From the NCBI GenBank assembly GCA_017643845.1, contig JAEPMR010000002.1, positions 1 to 64,000 of the forward strand: a DNA stretch of 64,000 nt, written 5' to 3'. How positions within the stretch are numbered: position 1 is the stretch's first letter; every line of letters starts with the position of its first letter. Shown in pieces: positions 17,764 through 19,954 of this stretch. The notes beneath the pieces are model-generated. The model worked only from the letters and a program-made list of their open reading frames with translations. It ran no database searches and was not told the DNA's origin. Made by a program: the position numbers and the translations under genes. The DNA comes from Marivivens sp. (GTDB taxonomy: Bacteria > Pseudomonadota > Alphaproteobacteria > Rhodobacterales > Rhodobacteraceae).

Positions 17764-18177
17764 TCACTCCACCTTCCCCCTGAGCGCCTTCACCTCTCCC
17801 CGCTTTTTCTTCTCGTCCAGCCGCCGCCGGATGCTCCCTTTCGTCGGGCGGGTGGGGACGCGGCGTTTGGGGGTTTCGGTGGCTTTGCGGATCAGTGTCA
17901 CCAACCGTTCCCGCGCGATCTCGCGGTTGCGGGCTTGGCTGCGGGTGTCCTGCACGAAGAGCACCACCGCGCCTTCGGTCGTCCACTTCTGCCCCGCCAG
18001 CCGCTTCAGCCGCCGTTTCACCGCTTCCGGCAATGAGGGGCTCCGCGCCGCCTCGAAGCGCAGCTCCACCGCTGTTGAGACCTTGTTCACGTTCTGCCCG
18101 CCGGGGCCGCTGGCGCGGGTGAACTGTTCGGTCAGTTCCCAGTCCTGAAGGGCGATGGTGTCGGTGATCTGGAGCAT
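17764..18177 (-). CDS. arfB: alternative ribosome-rescue factor ArfB (peptidyl-tRNA hydrolase)
   Basis: Hydrolyses peptidyl-tRNA on ribosomes stalled without a stop codon. The 137-residue protein has the catalytic GGQ at 26-28 in SGPGGQNVNK and a long lysine/arginine-rich C-terminal tail (RRRLDEKKKRGEVKALRGK) that enters the empty mRNA channel. The start at 18177 gives the normal length; a longer in-frame start would translate the 11-bp tandem repeats upstream and is rejected. Confidence 0.95.
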   Translation of the reverse strand: MLQITDTIALQDWELTEQFTRASGPGGQNVNKVSTAVELRFEAARSPSLPEAVKRRLKRLAGQKWTTEGAVVLFVQDTRSQARNREIARERLVTLIRKATETPKRRVPTRPTKGSIRRRLDEKKKRGEVKALRGKVE

Positions 18178-18230: not shown

Positions 18231-18274
18231 GATATGCATGGATTGTGCATCAGTTGTGCATGGGTTGTGCATCG
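18231..18274. repeat. four tandem 11-bp repeats upstream of arfB
   Basis: Units read on the minus strand as CGATGCACAAC, CCATGCACAAC, TGATGCACAAT and CCATGCATATC (18274 down to 18231), with core ATGCACAA. The period of 11 bp is one helical turn, so a bound protein would meet every site on the same face. The array lies 54 to 97 bp upstream of arfB. The core has partial likeness to a degenerate DnaA box (TGTGCAT versus TGTGGAT), which is weak evidence. Confidence 0.75.
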
Positions 18275-18323
18275 CAAATACGGGCGTTTCTAGCACGGTT
18301 TTTCTGCGCTGCGGCGTATGAAA

Positions 18324-18354
18324 AAGGGCCGCCCTGGCGACAGGTACGGCCCTT
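18324..18354 (-). terminator. rho-independent terminator on the minus strand
   Basis: On the minus strand AAGGGCCG (18354-18347) pairs with CGGCCCTT (18331-18324) across a 15-nt loop, continuing into a run of T (18325-18321). This would end a transcript that starts between the MFS gene and arfB and carries the small ORF at 18480-18424. Confidence 0.75.
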
Positions 18355-18423
18355 CGAAAGTTCAGGAGGTGGGGTCGGTTAGATCACGTCCCACCTGGGG
18401 GTTTTCGTCAGCCAAGGGCTGCC

Positions 18424-18480
18424 CTAGCGACGGACCTCCCAAGCTGTCCCGACACCTTTCTCCAATACCTTTCTAGACAC
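18424..18480 (-). CDS. putative 18-codon small ORF with extended Shine-Dalgarno sequence
   Basis: GTG at 18480-18478 opens VSRKVLEKGVGTAWEVRR and stops at TAG 18426-18424. It is preceded by GAAAGGAGGTGATCCA, which is complementary to essentially the whole anti-Shine-Dalgarno tail of 16S rRNA, with GGAGG seven bases from the GTG. After the TAG the same frame stays open for 14 more codons (two Trp, ending RWDVI) to a TAA at 18381-18379, inside a stem AGGTGGG/CCCACCT. No known family is recognised. It may be a leader peptide, a regulatory small RNA with a coding part, or chance with respect to the peptide; the ribosome-binding sequence itself is striking. Confidence 0.45.
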   Translation of the reverse strand: MSRKVLEKGVGTAWEVRR

Positions 18481-18514
18481 TGGATCACCTCCTTTCATTG
18501 ATTTCGCCTGAGGG

Positions 18515-18543
18515 TAGGGTGCCACAGATTTTGTGTCTGTCAA
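18515..18543 (-). promoter_or_regulatory. possible promoter for the small minus-strand transcript
   Basis: On the minus strand a perfect -35 hexamer TTGACA lies at 18543-18538. About 17-18 bases further on is a weak -10 candidate around ACCCTA (18520-18515). Together with the terminator at 18354-18324 it would give a transcript of roughly 180 bases. The -10 match is poor, so confidence is low. Confidence 0.35.
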
Positions 18544-18580: not shown

Positions 18581-19954
18581 TTACTCAGTCTCGCCTGTTT
18601 CTGCATCGCCATTCGGGTCCACGAAAGCCAGAAGGATCAGCCCGATGACAAACAGCCCGATCACTGGCGAAACCCCCAGCCGCGGGCTCTGGGTCCAGAG
18701 CGTGAAAATCCCGATCAATGCGGGCGCGAGAAACGCCGTCGCCTTGCCCGAAAGCGCAAACAGCCCGAACGCCTCCGTCGGCCGCCCCGCCGTCGCATGC
18801 CGCACCATCATCGTCCGACTAGCTGCATACAAAGCCCCCCCCGCACCCCCAATCGCCGCGCCACACAGGTAGAAGATGATATCAGGTAGGTTGCTGCCTG
18901 CTTCCAGGGGGACTCCAAACAGGCTTTCACGGGACATCCCGACGATAATTGTGCAGACGAGCATGAGTACCCAAATGCAGGTTTTGATGACTGGCTTTGG
19001 GCCGTAGCGGCTATCGAATAAACCCCCGATATAAGTGGCAATTCCCGCCGTGACCGCGCCGACAATTCCAAAGACAGCGATCATCGTAAGAGACCAGTCC
19101 AAGACCAGTCGCGCATAGACGCCACCAAATCCGTAAAGCGCGTTCAAGGCATCGCGATAGAACATTGATGACGCGAGGTAACTGGCGAGGCTCGGGCGCT
19201 TCATAACCGATTTGATAGAGGCTCTCAGGTCCCCAAGCGCGGCTCTAACGCCTCCCTGCTTCACCACCGGTTTCGGCTCCCGAACCCATACAAAGTAGGG
19301 GATCATAAACACAACATACCACAAGGCGATGAACGGGCCGACAACGCGTGTTCCCTCGCGGGCTTCCGGGTCAAGTCCGAACGCAGGATCGGTTCCAATG
19401 AGCGTCGTTCCGGCAGTGTCGTTTGCCTCGAAAAAGAAGAGGAGCATGACAAAAAGCGAAAGCACCCCACCCCAATACCCAAAGGAGGCTCCCGACCCGC
19501 TGATCTTCCCGATAGCCTCGCGCCCGCCAAGGCTCGGAAGCTGAGCGTTCGTGAAAATCAGTGCGAATTCGGCTGCAATAAAGCCGCTGGAAAAGGCGAA
19601 AAGCGTAAACCACAATCCACTTCCATCTGGCAAAAGAAACCACATCATCCATGCGGCGAGAACATAGATCATGGAAAACCCGACGATCCATGGCATCCGC
19701 CGGCCGGTGCTGTCGGCATAGGCTCCAAGCACCGGCCCCATAAACGCGATGACGAGTCCCGCCATGGTTTGGCCAAGTGACCACATGGATTGCGCTTGCG
19801 CGTCAGCTGCCTGTTCAGAGAGTCCGCCTGCTGCGAAAAATTCCGTTGCTACGCCAGCAAAATAGGGGCCAAAGATAAAAGTCAGACCGAGTGTGTAATA
19901 GGGCTGCGCCGCCCAGTCGAAACACATCCAACCGAAAATCCGCCGCTTTGACAT
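18581..19954 (-). CDS. MFS transporter, UMF1/Atg22-like family
   Basis: Inner-membrane transporter of 457 residues with about 12 hydrophobic segments. The N-terminus MSKRRIFGWMCFDWAAQPYYTL and the GAYADSTGRRMPW loop are typical of the UMF1 family. The start at 19954 is preferred to one 34 codons upstream, since those residues are not hydrophobic and lack family likeness. Substrate is unknown. Its 3' side leads into the small-transcript region, with no obvious terminator of its own. Confidence 0.85.
   Translation of the reverse strand: MSKRRIFGWMCFDWAAQPYYTLGLTFIFGPYFAGVATEFFAAGGLSEQAADAQAQSMWSLGQTMAGLVIAFMGPVLGAYADSTGRRMPWIVGFSMIYVLAAWMMWFLLPDGSGLWFTLFAFSSGFIAAEFALIFTNAQLPSLGGREAIGKISGSGASFGYWGGVLSLFVMLLFFFEANDTAGTTLIGTDPAFGLDPEAREGTRVVGPFIALWYVVFMIPYFVWVREPKPVVKQGGVRAALGDLRASIKSVMKRPSLASYLASSMFYRDALNALYGFGGVYARLVLDWSLTMIAVFGIVGAVTAGIATYIGGLFDSRYGPKPVIKTCIWVLMLVCTIIVGMSRESLFGVPLEAGSNLPDIIFYLCGAAIGGAGGALYAASRTMMVRHATAGRPTEAFGLFALSGKATAFLAPALIGIFTLWTQSPRLGVSPVIGLFVIGLILLAFVDPNGDAETGETE

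Follow-up and report, generated by a model that had tools for sequence, protein, structure and literature searches.

A conserved small RNA unit of Rhodobacteraceae with an extended Shine-Dalgarno sequence and an 18-codon reading frame, and its probable relatives across Alphaproteobacteria

The window analyzed here is a stretch of 64,000 nucleotides at the start of contig JAEPMR010000002.1 of a Marivivens sp. assembly. It carries on its minus strand a compact unit between an MFS gene, the ORF of which ends at 18581, and arfB, which starts at 18177. The features of the unit and its downstream neighbor are as follows.

18538..18543, minus strand: TTGACA, a -35-like element (sequence reading, checked by script)
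18481..18496, minus strand: extended Shine-Dalgarno (SD) sequence GAAAGGAGGTGATCCA, complementary to 16 nt of the 16S rRNA 3' tail
18424..18480, minus strand: 18-codon ORF, V(M)SRKVLEKGVGTAWEVRR, with a GTG start at 18480-18478 and a TAG stop at 18426-18424
18409..18430, minus strand: hairpin over the end of the ORF and its stop codon (RNAalifold columns 67-75/80-88, alignment A2)
18364..18371, minus strand: aSD-like element CACCTCCT, pairable with AGGAGGTG of the SD
18321..18354, minus strand: rho-independent terminator, a hairpin followed by five T (reading, fold, consensus and terminator scanner)
17764..18177, minus strand: arfB, a ribosome-rescue peptidyl-tRNA hydrolase, the next downstream gene and a neighbor outside the RNA

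The initial annotation, made from the letters alone, had described a TTGACA element, an SD sequence, a GTG-initiated ORF of 18 codons and a terminator following each other in a compact minus-strand unit; script and reading confirmed this anatomy and its coordinates, and the terminator hairpin with its five T at 18354-18321 was independently picked up by the scanner. A promoter scanner found no consensus sigma-70 promoter and no consensus -10 element at the unit, and only the -35-like TTGAC recurs: 65 of 107 relatives have it 49 to 54 nt 5' of the SD core. The frame beyond the TAG does stay open for 14 codons with two tryptophans, as had been remarked, but this extension is not kept in relatives.

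A blastn match to the region (E 0.01) was present in 246 of 295 family genomes, each representing one genus, with 13 of these matches weaker than 1e-5 by hand count, and the region is 97% identical in a second genome of the same genus. Close relatives thus do carry it, which disposes of the concern raised with the annotation that it might lack conservation. We assembled 108 family sequences (105 distinct) from the same-genus locus L002, the 29 best other blastn loci, 60 further places and 18 named loci whose family membership was assigned mostly by peptide. The blastn-derived loci represent 89 of the 245 other matching genomes, were drawn from the upper part of the list and are biased to better matches; three pairs in the set are duplicate contigs (L017/L083, L190/L178 and L239/L105). 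A strict SD pattern matched 92 of 107 family sequences, and the other 15 were parsed with looser patterns. We conclude that the feature is real and constitutes a compact small RNA unit conserved in the family.

Each of the 16 bases preceding the GTG is complementary to the 16S tail, as judged from the 3' end GGCTGGATCACCTCCTTTC of genome G001, which belongs to the same genus as the window and in which Rfam identifies this sequence as the SSU rRNA 3' end. The near-complete anti-SD match noticed from the sequence is therefore borne out at 16 of 16 positions against a same-genus tail. This tail was located in three of the seven genomes searched, including G001; no copy of it was found in the window's own assembly, which is 89% complete and contains the 15-mer AAAGGAGGTGATCCA once. 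In the family, all 16 SD bases are exact in 74 of the 108 sequences (the 108 include L030, which was misparsed), in a count for which the AGGAGGTG core served as the search key. Departures lie among the initial bases or in the ATCC part, variation in the latter being confined to a minority, and L187 combines a shorter spacer with an ATG start and, as in a minority of sequences, a shorter match to 16S rRNA. Across the phylum, GAAAGGAGGTGATCNNRTG occurs in 65 of 398 genomes. By hand count from the result table, these comprise 13 of 27 family genomes and 52 of the 108 other class genomes, with 0 of 263 outside the class. Genome G307 (locus L047) has two sites with an extended SD and a start codon, the only such case among the 65 GAAAGGAGGTGATCNNRTG-matching genomes.

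The 16-nt complementarity could in principle make the RNA a passive sponge that titrates 30S subunits. We consider this highly improbable, since a single-copy RNA would presumably need ribosome-scale abundance for such a role and a sponge should have no need of a conserved start and stop.

The ORF measures 18 codons in 106 of the 108 family sequences as parsed; L030, misparsed by the script, also has 18 codons and a TAG, and L225, in which the stop is lost and the ORF runs to 24 codons, is the single exception to this length. Among 103 distinct family ORFs the stop is TAG in 47, TGA in 33, TAA in 23 and TGG in none, such that its second and third positions each vary between A and G without ever giving TGG (Fisher p 5.8e-12, a guide only because the sequences are related). 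Single-base departures from the commonest codon, scored across the strict set of 89 distinct ORFs, are synonymous in a fraction of 0.56 at codons 2-12 against a neutral expectation of 0.29, and this bias is absent at codons 13-18 (0.18 against 0.25). The stop pattern and the codon-wise synonymous bias together indicate that conservation covers the first two thirds of the frame and its end point, and not the last third. Counting against coding, the three codon positions do not differ in entropy when the whole ORF is taken, in the same 89 ORFs, and openness alone is weak evidence because the other two frames are also stop-free over the ORF span in 67 and 54 of the 89. Given the constant length, the TGG-free variation of the stop and the synonymous bias in codons 2-12, we consider that the ORF is very probably translated in the family. 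Sensing of release factor 1 at a conserved UAG is ruled out, since stop identity varies among TAG, TGA and TAA.

Selection on ORF length, on the stop and on codons 2-12 in the family would also suit a plain tiny mRNA, with the 18-residue peptide as its product and the long SD serving high output. That reading seems rather improbable: the last third of the ORF is unconstrained, and the covarying structure and SD-covering element described below would be needless. The peptides are, moreover, unrelated between orders while SD, start, small ORF and terminator stay, so that the peptide is unlikely to be the chief product class-wide.

The RNA strand folds at -84.5 kcal/mol compared with a shuffle mean of -69.8 (z -3.24), and none of 200 shuffles did as well. 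An RNAalifold consensus of 24 relatives, which we chose from 37 nonredundant sequences, contains 46 pairs, 13 of which carry one or more compensated changes. The stop-codon hairpin contributes six of these (out of its eight pairs), an inner helix four, a short helix one and the terminator two. The several stems read from the sequence alone are thereby substantiated. In the minimum-free-energy structure AGGAGGUG of the SD is paired to CACCUCCU, and an SD-aSD helix is predicted both there and in the consensus of the 24 relatives. A 7-mer able to pair with the SD at 7 of 7 positions was present in 100 of the 108 family sequences, compared with 49 of 315 random 45-nt windows (chiefly CACCTCC in 54, CGCCTCC in 24 and CATCTCC in 18); for the 10 of 108 sequences without an anchor, the whole 115 nt was searched. 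Because the SD side never varies, this pairing shows wobble-compatible changes only. By eye, the aSD-like element is also pairable with a local AGGTGGG stretch.

Across the class, RNAduplex scores of the SD against downstream sequence were only modestly better than those of shuffles. A rank of 0.05 or less was reached by 15 of 39 Rhodobacteraceae, 12 of 42 Caulobacter-like, 6 of 24 Mesorhizobium-like, 1 of 9 Bradyrhizobium, 5 of 17 other and 1 of 34 Sphingomonadales sequences (mean z -0.22 in the last group). We accordingly rejected self-sequestration of the SD as a class-wide rule, RNAduplex giving no support in Sphingomonadales and modest support elsewhere. RNAalifold alignments of these clades contained compensated changes in 11 of 20 pairs (Caulobacter-like), 14 of 51 (Sphingomonadales) and 21 of 27 (Mesorhizobium-like). 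We also considered a helix between the early codons and the segment preceding the terminator, using 213 class sequences, or 210 once repeats were removed. Over the 210, the cis energy of -9.57 compares with -8.23 (sd 0.13) after permutation and with -9.35 (sd 0.09) after permutation within clades, the lowest of 200 within-clade values (-9.63) lying below the cis value. In 76 Rhodobacteraceae there was no signal (cis -7.47, trans -7.54), and the closing helix was dropped for this family for want of any cis advantage.

The structured 3' part also bears on the idea of a base-pairing small RNA that would use the aSD-like CCACCUCC as a seed on the SD sequences of target mRNAs, with the ORF only stabilizing or gating it. 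Its CUAACCG...CCACCUCC segment near the 3' end is conserved, and passages on Sinorhizobium sRNA families describe CCUCCUCCC loops (PMC3927594). With the aSD-like element itself predicted to be paired and the target side conjectural, we hold this to be unlikely.

The gene downstream of the unit is assigned to arfB by the NCBIfam equivalog NF006718 (185 bits against a cut-off of 100) and also matches PF00472. It occurs in 278 of 295 family genomes and immediately follows the RNA, in the same orientation, at 23 of the 29 loci from other genera. This arrangement, the sequence of a short ORF followed by a terminator, and the role of ArfB in handling stalled ribosomes, a fitting output, would all suit a leader or attenuator in which translation of the mini-ORF decides whether transcription proceeds past the terminator into arfB. 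In the remaining 6 of the 29 loci, however, arfB is not adjacent, being 1.6 to 2.6 kb downstream in G243, G258, G133 and G036 and 7.4 kb away in G044, with its place not listed for G224. Genome G115 has the RNA (5.6e-18) but no arfB match at 1e-10, and tblastn for arfB in L033-L062 gave none besides the window's own L061. A conserved antiterminator is at most putative, a 6-base GCCCUU/AAGGGC alternative having been seen by eye, and the varying stop takes release factor 1 sensing out of the scheme. Neighbors and distances thus weaken attenuation of arfB as a general function, and as an account of the RNA we regard it as unlikely. The regulatory leader peptide suggested in the initial annotation, if taken as one for the gene downstream, likewise finds no support as a general rule: a terminator intervenes, and the nonadjacent loci together with the other neighbors found in other orders speak against a dedicated arfB leader.

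Upstream, the genes of 30 family loci form one cluster other than the window's MFS gene, of which a single member was scanned and proved to be a Vut_1 transporter; because these 30 other loci share a different upstream gene, it is unlikely, on genomic context, that the window RNA is merely the 3' tail of the MFS mRNA. At 12 Sphingomonadales loci the downstream genes belong to one cluster, of which one member was scanned over its first 200 residues and resembled Aminotran_4 below cut-off, and at five other loci the scanned member of the neighbor cluster was DUF188. As neighbor clusters differ between orders, the unit occupies different contexts with its own terminator. In Bradyrhizobium tropiciagri L098 (3422-3492, 3666), a tRNA gene on the opposite strand lies about 170 nt from the start of the SD. 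In the window, the gap between the RNA terminator and arfB contains three copies of ATGCACAA and one of ATGCATAT with an exact 11-nt period (18232-18272, minus strand, starting at 18272, 18261, 18250 and 18239). Similar repeats are present at L002, and they are possibly a binding site for a regulator of arfB.

RF01867 (CC2171), the source of which is said to be Landt 2008, was alone among Rfam families in matching the window significantly. The covariance match is full-length (model positions 1-159) with 43.2 bits and E 5.4e-8, which is sub-threshold with respect to the gathering score of 75. In the alignment, the 5' block of the model, with the full SD and GUGUCU, is present in the window unit, and similarity outside the SD block was found in the terminator only (12.6 bits). 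On the plus strand, RF01867 scores 13.2 bits on the terminator stem at 18325-18352, as expected of a palindrome. The CC2171 RNA resembles the window RNA in having GAAAGGAGGUGAUCCAGUGUCU at its 5' end, a similar length and a terminator, and differs from it in the middle; its Rfam type is sRNA gene. The tie of the window RNA to the RF01867 group, a relation proposed from sequence comparison, rests on this 5' block.

Run at E 0.01, the RF01867 model gave matches in 69 of the 289 class genomes, with 9 of the 289 scoring above gathering, and 3 of 10 loci scanned reached the gathering score. Among 14 named control genomes, Caulobacter vibrioides and Deinobacterium chartae were matched; since the latter is unrelated, weak matches to the model can be due to chance. 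Short ORFs are readable in the loci recovered by the model. A scan of named genomes with the SD pattern followed by TC gave at least 119 stretches and, among the matches listed, included Sphingomonas, Novosphingobium, Bradyrhizobium, Mesorhizobium, Methylobacterium, Brevundimonas, Roseococcus and Azospirillum. Because the pattern fixes the SD and the TC of codon 2, an exact SD and a second serine are present by construction in loci selected in this way. The listed matches within L033-L181 comprise 130 nonfamily loci, 125 with the strict pattern and five without it (L037, L038, L042, L043 and L045), all five from the RF01867 search.

Among the 125 listed loci, the ORF has 14 codons in 9, 18 in 34 and 19 to 26 in 78, with longer ORFs of 31, 36 and 59 codons in L120, L157 and L136, respectively, and one cut by the contig end in L074. 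Stops in the listed nonfamily loci are TGA in 67, TAA in 39 and TAG in 18. Codon 2 is serine in 123 of 124 listed nonfamily ORFs, as the pattern forces in pattern-selected loci; in loci derived from RF01867, where it is not forced, it is serine in 23 of 24 read and lysine in L049. ORF length tracks clade, with 14 codons in Bradyrhizobium and mostly 18 in Sphingomonadales, and the peptide sequences differ between orders. The nine Bradyrhizobium-type loci (L098, L104, L114, L118, L122, L141, L161, L164 and L168) have 14 codons and all contain KRCHLAGIAR, which is partly encoded by TGTCACCTCGCTGGGATCGCC, a sequence that itself resembles the 16S tail. Pontivivens insulae L167 begins with ATG-Ser-Ser like the Mesorhizobium type and contains LEQVVG like Rhodobacteraceae, and its upstream and downstream neighbors belong to the Vut_1 and arfB clusters, respectively, as in other Rhodobacteraceae; it is a possible link between the two types.

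Loci across the class thus show a similar layout, in which the same SD is followed by a short ORF and then a terminator, and we regard them as probable relatives of the unit across Alphaproteobacteria. Common descent of the whole group appears likely, and convergence on the 16S tail is a possible alternative. The Rfam 15 paper (PMC11701678) includes CC2171/RF01867 in one of its tables, and the family corresponds to MH_s33 of Mesorhizobium huakuii, with a listed span of 215 nt (PMC5596092) that we take to be an RNA-seq unit. In the literature searched, which did not extend to Landt 2008, we found no description of an ORF or of 16S complementarity in a CC2171-type RNA. Term searches of main texts gave no passage on the locus for Ruegeria pomeroyi sRNAs and none naming it for those of Paracoccus denitrificans, and the passages of Caulobacter papers retrieved do not identify the window RNA.

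We tentatively hypothesize, as the likeliest of the readings considered and one that we find quite possible, that the unit produces a stand-alone structured small RNA that is at the same time a tiny mRNA and is gated by docking of the 30S subunit. The transcription unit would span about 190 nt, its start being placed by the -35-like element. The 30S subunit and the internal aSD-like element would compete for the long SD, on which the subunit would dock, and docking or translation may flip the RNA between two forms. In the closed form the SD would be covered and the ORF off, and in the open form the SD would be on the ribosome, with the aSD-like and loop sequences free. The state of the RNA would then follow ribosome availability and could gate its own stability or its base-pairing with other mRNAs. 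Extended to the whole class, the proposal becomes a riboregulator that senses free 30S subunits through competition between the 16S tail and its internal imitation, with the mini-ORF holding the open state and the signal passing to mRNAs or to the RNA's own stability; in this general form it is speculative and, we think, unlikely. The near-complete complementarity to the 16S tail, the presence of the region in 246 of 295 genera and of the SD in 52 of 108 other class genomes make the RNA a strong candidate for coupling gene expression to the supply of ribosomes.

An ORF and a regulatory RNA are combined in one transcript in the dual-function RNA SgrS and in the leader-peptide sRNA rnTrpL. By its layout, the window RNA would be comparable to these. 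Pos19 of Rhodobacter sphaeroides is comparable by description: the relevant passages report an RNA of about 200 nt with an SD, a translated short ORF and a rho-independent terminator, which differs from the window RNA in its length of 219 nt and its ORF of 150 or 135 nt, and in which SD mutations left some translation, so that abolition was incomplete (PMC5036791). Extended SD sequences in Staphylococcus aureus also form SD-aSD helices longer than canonical and are associated with short leader ORFs; in an mRNA solved by cryo-EM, the canonical helix is lengthened by two pairs (PMC13009471). There, however, the extended SD is a trait of many mRNAs, whereas in the window it is a 16-nt match in a stand-alone RNA.
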